A stretch of DNA of 22,646 nt from the IMG/VR virus record IMGVR_UViG_3300023116_004326, positions 1 to 22,646 of that record; one strand, 5' to 3'. The DNA comes from a virus. A model generated the notes under the pieces. That model had not been told where the DNA came from. It saw only the letters and a program-made list of their open reading frames with translations, and did no database searches. Position numbers and translations under genes: made by a program. Positions 492 through 11,252 of the stretch are shown here, one piece after another. Each line of letters begins with the position of its first letter. Positions within the stretch are counted from its first letter, which is position 1.

Positions 492-499
492 GATAAATA
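492..499 (+). promoter_or_regulatory. T4-type late promoter box (GATAAATA)
   Basis: This matches 7 of 8 bases of the T4 late consensus TATAAATA. It is followed by C and lies eight bases before the ATG at 508. In T4-like phages this box is read by the phage sigma factor gp55, with transcription starting about six bases downstream. The predicted transcript would therefore begin only about two bases before the start codon. A 5-bp inverted repeat with a 1-nt centre (CCACAGTGTGG, 481-491) sits just upstream. Confidence 0.55.
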
Positions 500-507
500 C
501 ACCCATA

Positions 508-642
508 ATGACACACACTTACAACGCTGGTAACTTCCAAGAATACGATTATGAAACCGAATGGTTAGAGTGTTCATGGAAACAGGTGTATGCTACAACA
601 CACTTGGTTACAGCATTTTTATATCCTTGGCTCGTACGATAA
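508..642 (+). CDS. Small protein behind a late promoter (44 aa)
   Basis: The ATG at 508 lies just after a GATAAATA late box, and the ORF runs to TAA at 640-642. The 44-residue product is acidic and aromatic in its first half (Y-D-Y-E-T-E-W-L-E-C-S-W) and ends in a hydrophobic stretch (H-L-V-T-A-F-L-Y-P-W-L-V-R). It could be a small membrane-interacting protein. No ribosome site precedes it. The stop codon TAA is embedded in the next late box (638-645), so gene end and promoter are merged. The same arrangement recurs at 3053-3060, which supports this being a real compact gene. Function unknown. Confidence 0.5.
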   Translation: MTHTYNAGNFQEYDYETEWLECSWKQVYATTHLVTAFLYPWLVR

Positions 643-645
643 ATA
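638..645 (+). promoter_or_regulatory. T4-type late promoter box (GATAAATA), overlapping a stop codon
   Basis: This matches 7 of 8 bases of TATAAATA and is followed by CTAAG. It contains the TAA stop of the 44-aa ORF. The predicted start of transcription is near 651, leaving a short leader with a GCGAGGG ribosome site before the ATG at 664. It is therefore a conventional leadered late promoter, useful for contrast with the boxes that abut start codons. Confidence 0.65.
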
Positions 646-663
646 CTAAGAGCGAGGGATAAC

Positions 664-1899: not shown

Positions 1900-1907
1900 T
1901 ATAAATA
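1900..1907 (+). promoter_or_regulatory. Perfect T4-type late promoter (TATAAATA) abutting a start codon
   Basis: An exact 8/8 match to the T4 late box, followed by CTAGT and then the ATG at 1913. With T4 spacing, the first transcribed base would be the A of the ATG, so the mRNA would be leaderless. The bases AAATACTAGTATGAA recur identically in front of the primase gene on the minus strand. Confidence 0.75.
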
Positions 1908-1912
1908 CTAGT

Positions 1913-2272
1913 ATGAAAAGAGCGGCCTTAATACTAGGACTTCTTTTTTGGGTCGCAACGTCAATTACAGTTTTTGCCCAAGAAGAACAGGAACAGAAAA
2001 GCAAACTGGTTCAGTTGCCTATACTGTTAGACTGTGGTTCTATACAAGCAATATCAGAGTTGTTAGTGGAATATCAAGAGATTCCGATTGCACAAGCAAA
2101 TGTTATGTGGCAATTGCCTTCCGGTCAATTTCTTGAAGGACCTATGACAATTTTTGCACACCCGACGAACTTTACTATTTCCATTGTGATTCAAGCAACA
2201 GAAGATTTTGGTTGCATTGCTTTTCCTGGAAAAGATTTTCGTCCATTCGCTTCTAATGGTACCAAGTTGTAG
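1913..2272 (+). CDS. Exported small protein with signal peptide (119 aa)
   Basis: I place the start at the ATG at 1913. It directly follows a perfect late box and begins a textbook signal peptide: M-K-R, a hydrophobic core A-A-L-I-L-G-L-L-F-W-V-A, and a likely cleavage site after V-F-A (residue 22) before Q-E-E. The frame is open for another 37 codons upstream, but that part covers the divergent promoters. The mature part has two cysteines, C41 and C101, which could form a disulfide in the periplasm. Its middle region is beta-rich (N-V-M-W-Q-L-P-S-G-Q-F). No family recognised. Late expression and export could suit a lysis or envelope role, but this is inference only. Confidence 0.75.
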   Translation: MKRAALILGLLFWVATSITVFAQEEQEQKSKLVQLPILLDCGSIQAISELLVEYQEIPIAQANVMWQLPSGQFLEGPMTIFAHPTNFTISIVIQATEDFGCIAFPGKDFRPFASNGTKL

Positions 2273-2276
2273 TTAA

Positions 2277-2284
2277 TTTAAATA
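2277..2284 (+). promoter_or_regulatory. Late promoter box (TTTAAATA) abutting a start codon
   Basis: This matches 7 of 8 bases of TATAAATA, followed by CTGTT and then the ATG at 2290. The five-base spacing is the same as at 1900-1907 and 3053-3060. A leaderless mRNA is predicted. Confidence 0.5.
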
Positions 2285-2289
2285 CTGTT

Positions 2290-3057
2290 ATGAAAGTAAC
2301 AGCAACACAACTTCCCATAACAAACGACCTTGATCAAAACACCACAAGCATACTAGAATTGCTGGAAGGCGATAAAGGTTACATGCTAACAGGTGAAGGA
2401 AGTCTCAGCGGTTACTTTGCTCCACCAGTGATCAACAACTGCACCAACACTGTTAGTTTAATGGACAGTGAACGACACATTGCTAACGAAGCAATAACAA
2501 AGAATATAAAATTATTACTGGGTACTGGATGGATGGAGCCGGATGGTATGCCCTACAATCAAGTTAGGGTATATGACGAAGGATACAAAGGTGCTTACTG
2601 CAAACGCCTATTGACAACAACTGCACAGGGTGGTGGCGAACGTAATGCTTATCTTCCTGGATGGGCACCTTTTGTATTTGACATGGGCAACAATCATAGA
2701 GGCGGTATTCTAATATGCAACGATATATGGGCAACACCTGTTGTTAGTCCACAAGGTAATCCCTATTATGTAAACGAGTATGCACGTATGGGTGTTACAG
2801 TATTGTTTTGTAGTGTAAACTGCAATGTAAGTGGGCGTGTAGAATGGGATCCTGTAATATACACTTGGCATGAAAATCATTTGCAGATGTATGCAAAGAC
2901 CTACGGCATGTACATAGTTGTAAGCGGAAGTAGTTTGAGCATGAACAGTGAACCTATTGAAAAACTGCAATGTCCTCTAGGTATCATAGGTCCGGACGGT
3001 AGTTGGTTAGAACAACTAGAACTTGGTGCGAGTCATGCATCAGTCATTTTAAAATAA
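2290..3057 (+). CDS. Carbon-nitrogen hydrolase (nitrilase superfamily)
   Basis: A 255-residue enzyme of the nitrilase/amidase superfamily, which cleaves amides or nitriles through a Glu-Lys-Cys triad. The triad is readable: E36 in T-G-E-G-S-L-S-G-Y, K105 in A-Y-C-K-R-L-L, and nucleophile C143 in G-G-I-L-I-C-N-D-I-W. The later parts I-G-P-D-G-S-W and the general length fit a single-domain family member. Substrate cannot be read. Deaminated or amide nitrogen compounds are typical, and nearness to a glutamine riboswitch makes a role in nitrogen recycling attractive but unproven. The start is the ATG five bases after a TTTAAATA box, with no ribosome site. The stop TAA lies inside the next late box, so the YqgE gene follows with almost no spacer. 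It could act as a host-derived metabolic gene. Confidence 0.85.
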   Translation: MKVTATQLPITNDLDQNTTSILELLEGDKGYMLTGEGSLSGYFAPPVINNCTNTVSLMDSERHIANEAITKNIKLLLGTGWMEPDGMPYNQVRVYDEGYKGAYCKRLLTTTAQGGGERNAYLPGWAPFVFDMGNNHRGGILICNDIWATPVVSPQGNPYYVNEYARMGVTVLFCSVNCNVSGRVEWDPVIYTWHENHLQMYAKTYGMYIVVSGSSLSMNSEPIEKLQCPLGIIGPDGSWLEQLELGASHASVILK

Positions 3058-3060
3058 ATA
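3053..3060 (+). promoter_or_regulatory. Late promoter box (AATAAATA) overlapping a stop codon and abutting a start
   Basis: This matches 7 of 8 bases of TATAAATA and contains the TAA stop of the hydrolase gene. It is followed by CTAAT and the ATG at 3066. The five-base spacing again predicts transcription starting at the ATG. Confidence 0.6.
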
Positions 3061-3065
3061 CTAAT

Positions 3066-3611
3066 ATGAATTACACAGGTAAACTGCTGGCGTCACAGCC
3101 AACAACACAGTCAGACTTTTTTAAAGAAAGTGTTATTCTTGTTGTCGACCACAGCGAAAAAGGTGCTTGGGGTTTGCAAATAAACAAGAGAACTGATACA
3201 CTTCGAGTTAATGAAGTTGTAAAAGACATCGGTGTTAGCATAGACTCTGAAGAACTATGTTATATCGGAGGTCCAGTGGAACAACAGGCTCTACATCTAG
3301 TACATTCAAGTGATTGTGTTATGAGTAACAGTATACCTGTTAATGACGAAATAAACATAACCAGTAACGGTACAATGTTTGCAGAATTACAAAGTGGTCG
3401 CGGTCCAAAAGATTGGATTTGCACACTGGGTATGTGTACATGGGCACCGGAACAACTTGACGGTGAAATGGGTGGCGAGCATCCGTGGACACCACAGCAT
3501 CGTTGGCTAGTCACTGATCCACCAAAGGATCTGTTGAATATTAATCCAAAGTTATTATGGAAACAGGTTGTTAAAAGTTGTGTTGAAGAAGCAACAGCGA
3601 ATATGTGGTAG
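3066..3611 (+). CDS. YqgE/AlgH family protein (DUF179)
   Basis: A 181-residue protein with the family hallmarks: an N-terminal G-K-L-L-A-S-Q-P, F-F-K-E-S-V-I-L-V-V-D-H-S around residues 18-30, E-K-G-A-W-G-L-Q-I-N at 31-40, and Y-I-G-G-P-V at 66-71. The biochemical role of the family is not well defined. Bacterial members are cytoplasmic and about this length. I use the ATG at 3066 because it starts at the family N-terminus and lies five bases after a late box. The longer frame from 3003 would overlap the hydrolase. No ribosome site. It ends 11 bases before the convergent helicase gene. Why a phage would carry it is unclear. Confidence 0.85.
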   Translation: MNYTGKLLASQPTTQSDFFKESVILVVDHSEKGAWGLQINKRTDTLRVNEVVKDIGVSIDSEELCYIGGPVEQQALHLVHSSDCVMSNSIPVNDEINITSNGTMFAELQSGRGPKDWICTLGMCTWAPEQLDGEMGGEHPWTPQHRWLVTDPPKDLLNINPKLLWKQVVKSCVEEATANMW

Positions 3612-3622
3612 AAGACAATTTG

Positions 3623-5044
3623 TTAATCTGCCTCAGTATTCATTGTTTTAAGAAGTTCTCGAAGTTTAGTTGATTGTGTTTTACCACTAACCTTACCTAT
3701 TGTAGATCCTTCTGTAGGATCACTTCTTGTAGAATCATTTTGTGCTGTGTCAACTGTGCTTTGTTGTTTGACTTTATCATAGATACTGCTTCCAGTTGAT
3801 TGTTGATATGAACTTTCATCTTCAACTAGATCTTTAATACGCAAACTATCCATATCAAATTCTAGATCTACTTTTTGTCCTACACCACTTGAACTACGTG
3901 TTTTCATAAACTGTATTTGATAACGTCCACGTTCTTTCATTGCTCGACTTGTAAAGATACCGATAACATTATCTGCTGTTTGAATCTTACTCAAACCACC
4001 TGAGATATGTGAATGATCAAATTCAATTTCTTCAACAGCCGCCCTGTTTAACTGCGATGCTGTAACAAATACACACCCTAGTTCCATTGCTAGGTTACGC
4101 AATTCTTCTGATACATATTTGTCTTTAACAAATAAATCACTTGGCGATACTTTTACACTCAATGGCATCATCAAATCCAAATAGTCAATCAGTAGCACGT
4201 CTGGCTTGCACTTGTTTTTAATTGACCATTCCTTAACGTAACTACGCAAGTCGTTTGCGTTCTTACCACTTGGCATATACTTGATTTGTATGCGTCCGCT
4301 TTTCTTGCCCATCATCCTGACTTTCATTTCTACATCATCAAGATTCTTAAACACATCACGTGTAGCAATACCTGTAAGCATACTGTCAATACGCATTGCT
4401 GTAAGTGCTTCTGAAAGTTCTAAACTTATGTACAACACGTTCATGCCTTCTGTGGCAAAGTTCACTGCCATGTTTTGCAAGAACAAACTCTTACCAGCAC
4501 CCGATCCACCTGCGAAAATATTAAGTTCACCTCTGTTGAATCCGCCAAACAGTTTCTTGTCAATGCTTGGCCATCCTGTGCTTACTTGTCCATTGTTGTT
4601 CTTAAGTCCTTCTAGTCTACCTTTAGGATCTGCAAAGTAATCAGTACCCATGTCTTTTGCAAGACCAATCTGTATTGCTTCTTTAACTAGTCCTTCAACT
4701 GGACCATAGTCACCTTTTTCTAATAGGTCAGCACTTTTAAGAATTGCACGTTCAAGTGCTTTGTGTCTACTAAATTTTTCAAATGTATCAAGTAACCAAT
4801 CAGTGTGTTCTTGTCCTACACCACTTGCATCTTTTAGATCTGTTTGACATGAACTGTTAACAATTTCAAGTTCAGGCATAACCTTATATTCGTCAACATA
4901 CTTTTTAATAAACTCTGCACTGTCTTTTAATTTTTGATCAAAGTTTTCACTTTCAAAAATACCTTGACATCTTACAAATGCTTCTGCATCTGATAGAAAC
5001 ATTTCCAAAAACAGTTTTTGTATGTCATGATTAAAATCTTGCAT
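3623..5044 (-). CDS. Replicative DNA helicase, DnaB/T4 gp41 type
   Basis: This 473-residue protein should be the hexameric replicative helicase that loads with the primase (8217-9227). The RecA-like core is clear: Walker A G-G-S-G-A-G-K-S (179-186), S-L-E-L-S-E (207-212), Walker B L-L-I-D-Y-L-D-L-M (284-292), T-A-S-Q-L-N-R (328-334), and the arginine-finger region K-T-R-S-S-S-G-V-G (381-389). The N-terminal 150 residues form the primase-contacting domain, and the Ser/Thr-rich tail after residue 410 looks disordered. The length matches T4 gp41 (475). The start ATG has AAAGG eight bases upstream. It is the last gene of the minus-strand group, 11 bases after the carbamoyltransferase, with a TATAAT-like sequence in the end of that gene. 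Confidence 0.92.
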   Translation of the reverse strand: MQDFNHDIQKLFLEMFLSDAEAFVRCQGIFESENFDQKLKDSAEFIKKYVDEYKVMPELEIVNSSCQTDLKDASGVGQEHTDWLLDTFEKFSRHKALERAILKSADLLEKGDYGPVEGLVKEAIQIGLAKDMGTDYFADPKGRLEGLKNNNGQVSTGWPSIDKKLFGGFNRGELNIFAGGSGAGKSLFLQNMAVNFATEGMNVLYISLELSEALTAMRIDSMLTGIATRDVFKNLDDVEMKVRMMGKKSGRIQIKYMPSGKNANDLRSYVKEWSIKNKCKPDVLLIDYLDLMMPLSVKVSPSDLFVKDKYVSEELRNLAMELGCVFVTASQLNRAAVEEIEFDHSHISGGLSKIQTADNVIGIFTSRAMKERGRYQIQFMKTRSSSGVGQKVDLEFDMDSLRIKDLVEDESSYQQSTGSSIYDKVKQQSTVDTAQNDSTRSDPTEGSTIGKVSGKTQSTKLRELLKTMNTEAD

Positions 5045-5055
5045 TCATTATACCT

Positions 5056-6042
5056 TTATTTTTCACTGTTATTATTATACCATATATCGTTGTTAAAGTC
5101 AACCTGAACTTTTGTTTTGGCAAACACAGCACCTAAACAACTTCCTGGATCACCCGGATGTTTTGGAACATGAATTTTTTCAAACATTCTCATTTCTCTA
5201 ACTTTATCAATAGCAGATTTATTTAATGCACACCCGCCCATAAAACATACTTGGTCGTATTGACAAACTTGTTTCAACCAAAGACTAATGCCCATAATAA
5301 GTTCTTCAAATTTCTTTTGTACTCCGGCCGCTAAATCTCTTACGTTAGCATCTGGAAGCCAAGCATTTAATCCTCTATGCATGTTAACATTGAACTTAAT
5401 GCTAGGATATTTTATATCAAACAGTTCGTTAATTTCTTTCATATAACGATCTGGGTCTCCTTCTTTAGCCATCTCAGCAATAATGTATTCATCTCTATTT
5501 GCTTTTAATCCAATGCGTTGTGTCATTGCACTGTACCACAGTCCAATTGAATGTGGATAACCTTGACTGTGAATACGTTTGATACGACCACCTAGTCCGT
5601 CCCATATAGTATAGGTTTCAAATTCACCAATGCTATCTAGTACAACTATACCCCATCGTGTGTTTCCTCTTGGCGCAGAATAATAACCATATGCGGCATG
5701 GCTTTCGTGATGTTTTGTAAAAGATAGTTTATGATCAGGCCCTGGACCCCAATGTTGTAAATAATTTTTTACATTTGAATCACTAAAAGGAATGTCTTGC
5801 CTTGCCCATAATTGTCGTAACCATTTGAGTCTTGGATATTCGTACCATACTATTTCGTCTGGCATACCATAAGATTGTTTTGCTACACTAACCATTGTGT
5901 GATTAAGGTGCGGATCGTTTTCTACACCACTAAAGTCTTTTGCTAAACACGCCCATACAGGATGTGCACCTTTAAATACAGCCAAACTGGCATCGTGGCT
6001 GTTTGCTACTATACCCCAGCGTATTGTTGTATCATTCATCAT
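5056..6042 (-). CDS. NodU/CmcH-type carbamoyltransferase, N-terminal (Kae1-like) half only
   Basis: The 328 residues match the N-terminal domain of NodU/TobZ carbamoyltransferases: S-H-D-A-S-L-A (15-21), metal-binding H-H-E-S-H-A-A-Y (111-118), L-D-S-I-G-E-F-E-T (135-143), G-Y-P-H-S-I-G-L-W-Y (161-170), then G-G-C-A-L-N and H-P-G-D-P-G-S-C-L-G-A near the end. Full family members are about 550-600 residues. The C-terminal YrdC-like half that makes carbamoyl-adenylate is absent, and no frameshift remnant follows before the helicase gene. The enzyme would need an activated carbamoyl donor from another protein. The target is unknown; related viral enzymes carbamoylate hydroxymethylated cytosine. 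It starts with ATGATG overlapping the TGA of the 37-residue gene, so it is translationally coupled. Confidence 0.8.
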   Translation of the reverse strand: MMNDTTIRWGIVANSHDASLAVFKGAHPVWACLAKDFSGVENDPHLNHTMVSVAKQSYGMPDEIVWYEYPRLKWLRQLWARQDIPFSDSNVKNYLQHWGPGPDHKLSFTKHHESHAAYGYYSAPRGNTRWGIVVLDSIGEFETYTIWDGLGGRIKRIHSQGYPHSIGLWYSAMTQRIGLKANRDEYIIAEMAKEGDPDRYMKEINELFDIKYPSIKFNVNMHRGLNAWLPDANVRDLAAGVQKKFEELIMGISLWLKQVCQYDQVCFMGGCALNKSAIDKVREMRMFEKIHVPKHPGDPGSCLGAVFAKTKVQVDFNNDIWYNNNSEK

Positions 6043-7698: not shown

Positions 7699-8224
7699 TT
7701 TCACCTCTATAATTAAATGTTACCACAAGCCTGTGTCCAGGATTTCGTGGACTACTGCTACTGTGATATTCAAGTCCGTCAAATGTAATTAGCGTATTTG
7801 CTTTTGGATATACTACATCTCTGACTGTAAATTTAGTGTTCTTAGATGGATATTTTTCGTTGTAAAACACTGTTGGAGCATCACTATCGTTTACATAGAA
7901 CAAACTAGTTTTATGTTCAAATTCAAAATCAACATGCGGATCGTGATACTCATCTTGCTGTTGTCCTGAATAAAATATAAACCCAACACGACAACGTATT
8001 AGATCAATATCTCCTAGCAGTGCTTTTACAGGATTAAGCAAAACTGCAAGGCTAGGATTTTCAACTTTGTTATCTTCAAATACATTTGTACTGAATCCAT
8101 ATTGCATTTTACCTTCACCGTATGCTACATTATGATTATAGGTCCACGCCGTAAGATTACTAGTTAAGTTACTTTCCAACAACTTTAATTTGTCATTTGC
8201 TATTGCATTTTCGATCTTAATCAT
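7691..8224 (-). CDS. 2-oxoglutarate/Fe(II)-dependent oxygenase (177 aa)
   Basis: The double-stranded beta-helix signature is readable: H-D-P-H-V-D-F (94-100) with the H97-x-D99 pair, the distal H154 in L-E-Y-H-S-S-S-S, and R165 in G-H-R-L-V-V-T-F for 2-oxoglutarate. Enzymes of this group hydroxylate proteins, nucleobases or small molecules. Phage versions are common and mostly of unknown target. The length is normal for the compact phage type. The ATG overlaps the end of the primase gene by 8 bases, and the gene runs into the SGNH pair. Being in one unit with a carbamoyltransferase raises the idea of stepwise hydroxylation and capping of one substrate, which is inference only. Confidence 0.8.
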   Translation of the reverse strand: MIKIENAIANDKLKLLESNLTSNLTAWTYNHNVAYGEGKMQYGFSTNVFEDNKVENPSLAVLLNPVKALLGDIDLIRCRVGFIFYSGQQQDEYHDPHVDFEFEHKTSLFYVNDSDAPTVFYNEKYPSKNTKFTVRDVVYPKANTLITFDGLEYHSSSSPRNPGHRLVVTFNYRGENV

Positions 8225-9227
8225 TAAAATAACTTTTCGCTAATAGTTCTATTTTAAGTTTGTTAGTTTCAATGCTGTTGATAATTTTTGTCATAGTGTA
8301 TACTCTACCATACTTTTGTACAGCATCATTTACATCTTTTATATCATCGTCCCAGTCAGGAAAACTAACACTCCAGCCATAGTGCAATGCACTTTCTAAA
8401 AGGTCAGCACCTGCACGATCTCTATCAGGAACTACAACAATCTGTCTTTGTAAACTGTTTATTAGTGTTGCTTGTGTGTCTTTAACGTCATTACTTAACA
8501 CAGCAACACCATCTATACTAATTGCATCAACAGGTCCTTCTACTACAAAACAATAACGTCTATAGTAGTTTTGTCTATCCAAGTTAAACACATATCCTGG
8601 TTGACTATCTGTAATATATTTGGGGGAGCCATTTCCTATCTTTCTCGCAGTGTAGCCGACTATGTCCCCTTGATAATAGAACGGAATAATTAGCCTTGAC
8701 TTATAGGAACCTTCCGGTGTCCACATAAAATTATAATCATCTATCATCAGGCCTCTACTTAAAAGATATTCAATGGCTCCAAATAAATCTGGATCCAACC
8801 CTGACGGCTCTAGTGCCTTCCAGTCTGCACATTCCATAATTGGTCTTGCTCCAACTGGCAGTTCCTTACTCTGAAACGTAGGCGTAATAAAGTGTTCTTC
8901 TGATGAATCTGATTCAGTTTGTATTATCTTTAAAGCCTCAAGACTAAGTCTTGTTATTTCAGAATCTGGCACGCCAAGCCAGCCAAGTAGTTTACGCATC
9001 TTGTATGATATGTTTCTACCTGGAACATAACTTGCAGTATATCCACAGTTAAAACAATGATAACTCACTGTACCATCTGTGTTATGCATCATACCACCAC
9101 GCATACGTTTGTCTGCATTCTCTCCATTATACACACAACATGGTGCATTGAAACTAGTCCACCCGCTAGGAGTTTTCTTATGTTTCGGAGGTAAGGCGGT
9201 TAGTAATGTTTGTTGTATCAGATTCAT
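8217..9227 (-). CDS. DNA primase, T4 gp61 type (zinc ribbon plus TOPRIM)
   Basis: This 336-residue primase would make RNA primers with the gp41-type helicase. The N-terminal zinc ribbon has C30/C31 and H-C-F-N-C-G (57-62). The TOPRIM part has F-V-V-E-G-P-V-D-A (227-235) with E230, L-S-N-D (244-247), and V-V-V-P-D-R-D-R-A-G (264-273) with D268 and D270. The length is close to T4 gp61 (342). The ATG at 9227 has no ribosome site. It is preceded by GTAAAATACTAGT, and the TAA stop of the structural gene forms part of this sequence. The 15 bases around the start are identical to those of the late gene at 1913. It overlaps the downstream oxygenase gene by 8 bases. Confidence 0.9.
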   Translation of the reverse strand: MNLIQQTLLTALPPKHKKTPSGWTSFNAPCCVYNGENADKRMRGGMMHNTDGTVSYHCFNCGYTASYVPGRNISYKMRKLLGWLGVPDSEITRLSLEALKIIQTESDSSEEHFITPTFQSKELPVGARPIMECADWKALEPSGLDPDLFGAIEYLLSRGLMIDDYNFMWTPEGSYKSRLIIPFYYQGDIVGYTARKIGNGSPKYITDSQPGYVFNLDRQNYYRRYCFVVEGPVDAISIDGVAVLSNDVKDTQATLINSLQRQIVVVPDRDRAGADLLESALHYGWSVSFPDWDDDIKDVNDAVQKYGRVYTMTKIINSIETNKLKIELLAKSYFND

Positions 9228-9232
9228 ACTAG

Positions 9233-9240
9233 TATTTTAC
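9233..9240 (-). promoter_or_regulatory. Box-like sequence (GTAAAATA) abutting the primase start
   Basis: Only 5 of 8 bases match the late box, but the downstream CTAGT-ATG and the five-base spacing match the boxes at 1900 and 3053. TAAAAT would also serve as a bacterial -10 hexamer six bases from the ATG. Either reading predicts a transcript with almost no leader. Confidence 0.35.
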
Positions 9241-10043
9241 GATCTTACTAGTACTTTGTCAAGTGTTCCGGTGTTCGAATTGGAAGGAATATGCTTAATT
9301 CTTAGCCAATTGTATACTCCATTTACATTGAAGTAATCATTAACTGTTGCATTTGATAGGGTGACAGTTTTGATACTTACCCAATCTGTTCCATTACTAG
9401 GTTGATTATCTAGTGTTGCTTCTAGTTCAATAGTACCATCATAACCAGTGGTATAATATTGAACTGTGTGTAAATCATTTGCACGTTTTAATCTTGCGTT
9501 AGCATTTATATGACTGCTGTAATAACTTGAAACTTGTGTGTCGGGATCAGTGGTTTCTGAAAACGTTGTAACTTCATCACTGGCTTCATGCATAGCGTAA
9601 CATGCATCTAATATTTCTATTCTTCCACATGCATCGTGATATGTGTTTACATACATTGGTTTAATTTTGTTATCCACAGTTCTTGTAATGCTGAATCTAT
9701 ACATTTGTGAAACTAGATCAATTGTATCACTTTCGTTTAAATCAATTGTAACTACACCACGTGTAGAACGTGTGCTACCGTCATCTACCACAGTCATTGT
9801 TTTGTTTAGGAAACTTGCGCCGTTTTCTTTGTCAAGTATTGTAAATTTAAACGTGTTGCCTGAACTGATGTCAATCGGCTTTTGATCCTGATTCTTTACT
9901 GTAAATTTAAGGGTGTTTGCGACACCTTTAAAAACCTTTAAATCATTCTGATACATAGGTGCATATCCTTGTTCTACTCCGGTGTCCAAATCACTGTAAA
10001 TGGTACTACCGGTTTCATAAATATATATTGGTACTTTGAGCAT
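9237..10043 (-). CDS. Putative virion structural protein (268 aa)
   Basis: The protein is rich in Thr, Ser, Asp and Asn, with alternating beta-type patterns and no catalytic motif. Residues around 35-130 (V-F-K-G-V-A-N-T-L-K-F-T-V-K, then F-K-F-T-I-L-D-K and G-V-V-T-I-D-L) resemble the Ig-like upper-baseplate (BppU-type) fold. The C-terminal part (W-V-S-I-K-T-V-T-L and Y-N-W-L-R-I-K-H-I) looks like a second beta-sandwich. A perfect late promoter (TATAAATA, 10071-10064) precedes it, with a 15-base leader after the predicted transcription start and the ATG at 10043. Late timing supports a virion component such as a tail, baseplate or decoration protein. The exact position in the particle is not readable. 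It is the only clear late structural gene in this minus-strand block. Confidence 0.6.
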   Translation of the reverse strand: MLKVPIYIYETGSTIYSDLDTGVEQGYAPMYQNDLKVFKGVANTLKFTVKNQDQKPIDISSGNTFKFTILDKENGASFLNKTMTVVDDGSTRSTRGVVTIDLNESDTIDLVSQMYRFSITRTVDNKIKPMYVNTYHDACGRIEILDACYAMHEASDEVTTFSETTDPDTQVSSYYSSHINANARLKRANDLHTVQYYTTGYDGTIELEATLDNQPSNGTDWVSIKTVTLSNATVNDYFNVNGVYNWLRIKHIPSNSNTGTLDKVLVRS

Positions 10044-10063
10044 ATCATTGTGTCATCCAATTG

Positions 10064-10071
10064 TATTTATA
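10064..10071 (-). promoter_or_regulatory. Perfect T4-type late promoter (TATAAATA), minus strand
   Basis: An exact 8/8 match on the minus strand, followed by CAATT. Predicted transcription start is near 10058, 15 bases before the ATG of the structural gene, with a weak GGA ribosome element in the leader. The last base of the box is also the A of the divergent ATG at 10071, so promoter and opposite start codon overlap. Confidence 0.75.
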
Positions 10072-10451: not shown

Positions 10452-10671
10452 TCTTTTTATACTGTATGTATATGATGTAATCAATTATTAGATAATTGAT
10501 AAAAAGTCCAACCGGTGTATATGTTATTCCAAACAACATAGGAATACCAACCAAAAAAATTGCAATCTTAAGCACATAATCAAATGCCAACTCTTCTGGT
10601 GAACTCCAAAAAGGCCAACTACCTAAATTAGGTTTTTTAGGTGGTCTTGGATTTTGCATTTCTGGAATCAT
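10435..10671 (-). CDS. Small membrane protein, two predicted TM segments (78 aa)
   Basis: The start at 10671 is chosen because its ATG shares an ATGA with the stop of the DnaE-like gene and follows AGGA. The open frame extends 11 codons further into that gene, which is less likely. The first 25 residues are Pro/Lys-rich and polar (N-P-R-P-P-K-K-P-N-L-G-S-W-P-F-W). Two hydrophobic segments follow, I-A-I-F-L-V-G-I-P-M-L-F-G-I and V-G-L-F-I-N-Y-L-I-I-D-Y-I-I-Y-I, then a short basic end. It is probably an inner-membrane protein with a cytoplasmic N-terminus. No family or function is known to me. It is the last gene of the long minus-strand operon. Confidence 0.65.
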   Translation of the reverse strand: MIPEMQNPRPPKKPNLGSWPFWSSPEELAFDYVLKIAIFLVGIPMLFGITYTPVGLFINYLIIDYIIYIQYKKITSTF

Positions 10672-11252
10672 GATCCTGCCCTTTGTTGGCTTACCATTTC
10701 GCACAACAAGTTCATGTGTACAACTATTGCATGAGCATAAGCAACTGCGTGTGCTTTTTTAAAATAATAACTTCCGTCAGTTGGTTTCTTCCACACTTCG
10801 TTCATCACCGTATCCCACTTCTTCCCGAGCAAATGTCTCTTCGCTGGACGGATAATTGCTAGTACTGCCGCTAGTTGTTCGATGCTCTGTGGTTTCATTT
10901 CTTTTAATATTGTACTGTGTTCTGCGACGTGAAATAAATTGTTGCTGAATTCTGGCTCTGTAAGTAATTCCCATAATGGCTCCTTGGCTAGTAGAGTATT
11001 TAAGTGTTCTTCGTTTCTCACACCTTCATATATGTGAACATTTAGCATGTCAATTTTAAAGTAACCACGATCATCTGCTTCTTTATGATCAATAGTACAC
11101 AATTCTGTAAATGGATTTATTGGAGCATCGTGAAAGTATACACCTGTATTATGTTTTTTCAATTCACCTTTTTCAATTCGTGATGCTTTGATGTGCTTAA
11201 ATTTTTCAAGCACTGCATCGCGATCAAAAAAATCTAAATCAATATCAGGCAT
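10668..11252 (-). CDS. Miniature DnaE-like (C-family DNA polymerase) protein (194 aa)
   Basis: Read along its length, this protein follows the E. coli DnaE catalytic core with large pieces missing. M-P-D-I-D-L-D-F (1-8) equals the palm motif P-D-x-D-x-D-F with two catalytic Asp. K-K-H-N-T-G-V (32-38) matches K-H-A-G-G-V. Y-F-K-I-D-M-L-N (64-71) matches V-K-F-D-F-L-G, the third Asp. L-F-H-V-A-E-H-S (106-113) through K-P-Q-S-I-E-Q-L-A-A-V-L-A-I-I-R-P (120-136) matches the fingers. F-K-K-A-H-A-V-A-Y-A (164-173) matches F-N-K-S-H-S-A-A-Y-A. PHP, thumb, beta-binding and tail domains are absent. Normal DnaE has about 1,160 residues. Activity is uncertain; it may have a structural or regulatory role beside a T4-type polymerase. 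It starts with TAATG overlap after the zinc-finger gene. Confidence 0.7.
   Translation of the reverse strand: MPDIDLDFFDRDAVLEKFKHIKASRIEKGELKKHNTGVYFHDAPINPFTELCTIDHKEADDRGYFKIDMLNVHIYEGVRNEEHLNTLLAKEPLWELLTEPEFSNNLFHVAEHSTILKEMKPQSIEQLAAVLAIIRPAKRHLLGKKWDTVMNEVWKKPTDGSYYFKKAHAVAYAHAIVVHMNLLCEMVSQQRAGS

Follow-up and report, generated by a model that had tools for sequence, protein, structure and literature searches.

Promoters set at start codons suggest leaderless late and replication genes in a marine T4-like phage clade

Three consecutive genes of an environmental virus each begin exactly five bases after an A/T-rich box resembling the late promoter of phage T4, which raises the question of whether their mRNAs begin at the start codon itself. 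The window, the whole stretch of DNA that was analysed, is a complete IMG/VR fragment record of 22.6 kb. It encodes a UvsW-type helicase, a DnaB-type helicase, a primase and a DnaE-like polymerase piece, and, judged by these helicase, primase and polymerase genes, we place it near jumbo T4-like phages. The polymerase piece is a separate gene (10668–11252, minus strand) whose 194-aa product matches DnaE-like DNA polymerase families, and the same is seen in PA5oct, Phosso and Atu_ph07. The nearest named relatives (Sinorhizobium phage Phosso, Agrobacterium phage Atu_ph07, Escherichia phage 121Q, Pseudomonas phage PA5oct and Pectobacterium phage CBB) all have less than 60% protein identity to the window, and in a megablast search with the entire window, named phages gave nothing beyond one short helicase match.

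Late boxes and a sigma-70 promoter in the window

The three sites and the genes that follow them are:

1900–1912, plus strand: T4-type late box TATAAATA (1900–1907, perfect octamer) and spacer CTAGT; predicted +1 at 1913
1913–2272, plus strand: candidate leaderless late gene for a 119-aa protein with a signal-peptide-like N-terminus and no family match
2277–2289, plus strand: late box TTTAAATA (2277–2284, one mismatch) and spacer CTGTT; predicted +1 at 2290
2290–3057, plus strand: candidate leaderless late gene for a 255-aa protein with no PHROG or Pfam match
3053–3065, plus strand: late box AATAAATA (3053–3060, one mismatch) and spacer CTAAT; predicted +1 at 3066
3066–3611, plus strand: candidate leaderless late gene for an AlgH-like protein (DUF179)

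The sequence-only reading had placed late boxes exactly five bases before the ATGs at 1913, 2290 and 3066, and the letters bear this out exactly; a Shine-Dalgarno (SD) core was sought at these three starts and is absent from all of them. Matches to TATAAATA with at most one mismatch are no more frequent in the window than expected (55 found versus 69), so the signal lies in the spacing. This spacing recurs in relatives: one (G006) has the same box and ATG arrangement at the orthologue of gene 1913–2272, relatives of gene 2290–3057 carry TTAAATA or GTAAATA at unchanged spacing, and [A/T]TAAATA stands at distance 5 before the orthologues of gene 3066–3611 in 7 of 10 relatives. The box at 3053–3060 overlaps the stop codon of the preceding gene. 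The AlgH protein was also used as a query for the host and found no relative in the genome contigs searched. Elsewhere in the window, GATAAATA stands 8 bases ahead of an ATG at 508 (44-codon ORF; 492–510, plus strand), where a start at the predicted +1, position 505, would leave three bases of leader.

A fourth site, 9227 on the minus strand, had also been taken for a late-box site. CTAGT-ATG is present there, but the octamer GTAAAATA has three mismatches to TATAAATA, and the letters ahead of the gene form a sigma-70 promoter instead (TTGACA-N17-TAAAAT-ACTAGT-ATG):

9228–9262, minus strand: sigma-70 promoter, TTGACA at 9262–9257, 17 bases, TAAAAT at 9239–9234, 6 bases; predicted +1 at 9227
8217–9227, minus strand: DNA primase, a candidate leaderless sigma-70 gene and not a late gene

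In this primase region (8217–9262, minus strand), the −35 element of the promoter lies inside the end of the preceding virion gene.

The T4 late box occupies positions −13 to −6 (PMC2988020), which makes +1 the sixth base after the box. The earlier claim that this spacing, carried over from E. coli and possibly not that of the host, puts +1 on the A of the ATG is supported by the bases around the predicted start and by an ATG-only peak described below. In leadered genes of the clade, whose base composition was tabulated upstream to about −21, the base at box+6 is A60/G22 and the preceding base T58/C6, that is, a pyrimidine-purine (YR) step, and T4 has A57/G20 after T57 at box+6; the base before the ATG of genes with the box at distance 5 is T88/C9. 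From this spacing we infer leaderless transcription, since an mRNA with its +1 on the A of the ATG would have no 5' leader.

Spacing, ribosome sites and start codons across the clade

Relatives (n = 80) were obtained by helicase search, with longer contigs taken whole or almost whole, including a 116-kb relative (G002, helicase identity 90%) and a 185-kb relative (G019). Distances from box to ATG were counted over 81 related contigs (1.75 Mb) of these A/T-rich phages (GC about 0.36), with [A/T]TAAATA as the late box and homologous gene groups as families. We found 31 families at distance 5 versus about 2.5 per distance at 0–4 and 6–12 (Poisson P about 2e-23), and ATAAATA stood at distance 5 from an ORF-opening ATG in 62 cases, with at most 7 at any other distance from 0 to 11. 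In 28 related records, ATAAATA-N5-ATG occurred 54 times and its reversed pattern 3 times. With GTAAATA added, 115 genes in 40 families show the distance-5 arrangement. Further from the ATG, the distances form another, broad mode at about 16–30 bases.

Ribosome sites divide along the same distances. An SD core is present at 2 of 68 distance-5 starts (2/45 with ATAAATA and 0/23 with TTAAATA) and at 52 of 68 ATAAATA starts at distances 16–28, compared with 9% of random positions. At distance 5 the box takes up the place of an SD core, which in part dictates the absence, so this contrast is supportive and not independent evidence. The distance-5 starts comprise 64 ATG, 2 GTG and 2 TTG codons and the peak is formed by ATG only; GTG or TTG opens 117 of 567 SD-led genes in the same phages. 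Leaderless initiation reportedly prefers AUG strongly, and in Sinorhizobium meliloti all leaderless starts are AUG (171/171; PMC3616915). The count of box-to-ATG distances against ribosome-site status that the sequence-only reading had proposed gives a sharp peak at 5 where SD is missing, and its suggestion of two start modes in one phage is supported across the clade, one at distance 5 without SD and one at 16–30 bases mostly with SD.

Sigma-70-like promoters, searched as TTGAC plus TANNNT with a scrambled −35 as control, have an ATG peak of their own in the clade at 6–7 bases, where the scrambled −35 is flat; no such peak at 6–7 was found in T4, CBB, PA5oct, Syn9 or the analysed parts of Phosso and Atu_ph07. 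Leadered sigma-70 genes (21–35 bases) have SD sites in most cases. Promoter and ATG spacing are retained in 50 of 51 primase orthologues, in forms such as TTGACT-N17-TATAAT-N6-ATG. Primase accounts for 50 of the 120 genes of the sigma-70 set, which also holds genes whose length and N-terminus suggest the replicative helicase and the DnaE-like piece. Between the 40 late families and the 16 sigma-70 families only one is common to both, and leaderless starts seem to span host-sigma and late-sigma gene sets. The earlier proposal joined late sigma factor and start codon in one element, and the late boxes do appear fused to the ATG; sigma-70 promoters also place their canonical +1 on the ATG, so the arrangement is not peculiar to the late sigma factor.

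A gp55-type sigma factor is found in the 185-kb relative (phrog_12791, E 3e-79) and none in the window, which is a fragment. The gp45-type clamp, sought in the clade records as phrog_223, was unmatched there; the cultured SAR11 phage HTVC008M has phrog_223, and the authors describing CBB likewise remarked that it has no gp45-type clamp (PMC5259590).

Leadered genes and orthologues that switch mode

Two genes of the window combine a late box with a leader:

638–663, plus strand: late box GATAAATA (638–645) and SD GAGGG (654–658) ahead of gene 664–906; predicted +1 at 651
10044–10071, minus strand: late box TATAAATA (10071–10064) and a weak SD ahead of the virion protein gene 10043–9237; predicted +1 at 10058

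The genes that had been set against the distance-5 sites as having a purine-rich site or at least a leader are as described: 144, 1289 (minus), 1431, 14133 (minus) and 17175 (minus) have SD-like sites, and at 664 the box is followed by 18 bases to the ATG with GAGGG within. At 10043 (minus), where 20 bases follow the box, the site is only weak (TTGGATGA; relatives carry AAGGATGA). The virion protein encoded there is leadered in the window and has the leaderless arrangement in 16 relatives, a count obtained from a raw 19 by removing three starts inside the protein (G002, L005 and L006).

In a close pair of relatives the two modes differ by one block. Their orthologous virion genes (L058, 15125–15172; L036, 18690–18737) have box and spacer in common and very similar N-termini, and read ATAAATATGTGT-AAGGGATTATAAAATT-ATG in L058 versus ATAAATATGTGT-ATG in L036. 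In L058 an SD-bearing leader precedes the ATG and in L036 the ATG follows directly, so that one 16-base block is present or absent with the predicted +1 unchanged. For the DnaB-type helicase gene, the sigma-70 promoter lies 29 bases from the ATG in the window (5044–5110, minus strand) and 6–7 bases from it in 12 relatives, so the sigma-70 class switches mode too.

Among the distance-5 genes of the relatives are those for terminase, tail tube, head-tail adaptor and virion proteins as well as auxiliary metabolic genes. One leaderless candidate among the relatives (L087, 13292–14089) encodes a cytidylyltransferase fused to a mannose-6-phosphate isomerase-like cupin domain.

Candidate explanations and known systems

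Our reading of the observed spacing, SD absence, ATG specificity, conservation and distribution is as follows. The boxes at 1900, 2277 and 3053 would be T4-type late promoters, recognised by RNA polymerase together with a gp55-like late sigma factor, with +1 on the A of the ATG and hence an mRNA without a 5' leader, and translation would proceed through recognition of the 5'-terminal AUG and not through SD pairing. Sigma-70 promoters of replication genes, such as that of the primase (9227), would likewise have their +1 on the ATG. The remaining genes would use a leader with SD, and orthologues would change mode, in the close pair by a 16-base leader block. Transcription very probably begins at the A of the ATG with a gp55-type holoenzyme at 1913, 2290 and 3066 and with a sigma-70 holoenzyme at 9227, and ribosomes very probably load on the 5'-terminal AUG; the exact 5' ends, the assignment of sigma factors to boxes and leaderless translation are what we infer from the letters.

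The promoters could instead be real with starts scattered by a few bases, giving leaders of 1–6 bases and 70S or short-leader initiation that is not strictly leaderless. By family, distances 6–11 exceed background without SD sites (about 30 family-distance counts, which suggest scattered starts or, in some genes, leaders of very few bases), and sigma-70 sites are divided between 6 and 7 bases. However, 31 families have distance 5 versus 9 at distance 6, and the ATG-only rule and the YR step indicate the A itself, which leaves scatter improbable. We give even less credit to the view that the boxes contribute little and that translation of these genes depends mainly on coupling to the gene upstream, on longer read-through mRNAs. 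At 2290, 3066 and 9227 a same-strand upstream gene does stop 9–17 bases before the ATG, but the upstream neighbour lies on the opposite strand at 41 of 92 distance-5 genes, so coupling is not general, and box spacing is kept among orthologues. That the A/T-rich word acts in translation, or is an artefact of base composition, and is no promoter is barely credible: it stands in the place of an SD site, in phages of high A/T content, but an enhancer would need no one-base spacing, the identical box also occurs 16–30 bases upstream alongside SD sites, and sigma-70 promoters with a −35 likewise peak at the spacing canonical for them.

Two sources of error were considered separately. Control words give no peak at 5, the reversed pattern is rare and the scrambled −35 is flat, which rejects composition as an artefact. 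An in-frame downstream SD start exists in 18 of 92 distance-5 genes versus 35 of 111 leadered genes, and since it is no commoner than in leadered genes, wrongly chosen start codons are unlikely.

Beyond this clade, ATAAATA-N5-ATG occurs in the cultured SAR11 phages HTVC008M (9 versus 1 reversed) and Mosig (8 versus 0) and in the OM43 phage Melnitz (4 versus 0). The sites fall exactly on annotated CDS starts in 9 of 9 cases in HTVC008M and 7 of 8 in Mosig (16/17 together), and their genes include tape measure, baseplate, tail tube and DNA end protector. Among the IMG/VR matches listed for the 15-mer ATAAATACTAGTATG, in 112 of 120 contigs the match starts an ORF that reaches 60 aa or continues past the contig end, compared with a background of 27%, and 114 of these 120 listed contigs affiliate with the T4-like references used, mostly as HTVC008M-like or members of this clade. 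No distance-5 genes were found in T4, CBB or Syn9, and PA5oct has 2 in 280 kb.

The T4 late promoters (gp55/gp33/gp45) share with the clade the TATAAATA-type box, a predicted +1 six bases on, virion genes and a gp55 homologue. T4 differs in that no gene has the box five bases from its ATG, its genes are leadered and mostly have SD, and the gp45-type clamp is unmatched in the clade records. For CBB, ATAAATA late promoters of virion genes and a gp55-like sigma are predicted as in the clade (PMC5259590); every box found there, however, is at least 14 bases from the ATG, with no leaderless peak. Late promoters of the NATAAATA type are predicted in cyanophages (PMC2984593). The Thermus phage phiYS40 has leaderless middle and late mRNAs (PMC3594737, citing Sevostyanova 2007), and resembles the clade in that, within one phage, a large class of genes has leaderless transcripts and other genes have ordinary ones; it is an unrelated phage, whereas the arrangement in the clade combines T4-type late with sigma-70 promoters. 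Among alphaproteobacteria, the S. meliloti starts noted above were mapped, all of them on AUG (PMC3616915), and in this resemble the clade; the S. meliloti leaderless mRNAs are a cellular minority class.

IF3 is a reported antagonist of leaderless initiation. An IF3_C domain is encoded by CBB (L494), Phosso (L492) and Atu_ph07 (L493), none of which shows the distance-5 peak (Phosso and Atu_ph07 covered in part only), and none was found on searching the clade records, HTVC008M, Mosig and Melnitz, all of which show it. T4, Syn9 and PA5oct are also without IF3, so this inverse pattern is only a lead.

In the open full-text literature, with most subscription papers outside reach, we found no report of leaderless T4-type late genes and no phage reported to use both promoter classes in this way. 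We consider it likely that in this marine T4-like clade both the sigma-70 replication set and the gp55-type late set are partly leaderless, with the +1 of each promoter on the ATG, and that single genes switch mode when a short leader is gained or lost.

In T4, the textbook case of such late transcription, the mRNAs have leaders and ribosome sites, and in these ocean phages, including cultured SAR11 phages, the promoter is apparently fused to the start codon. With cultured SAR11 phages, leaderless translation can be tested directly in real pairs of phage and host. The arrangement also predicts start codons that gene finders based on SD may overlook, and orthologue pairs differing mainly by a leader offer natural material on why a virus picks either mode. 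If the arrangement is true, its possible roles may include a fit to the host ribosome or the control of translation during infection.
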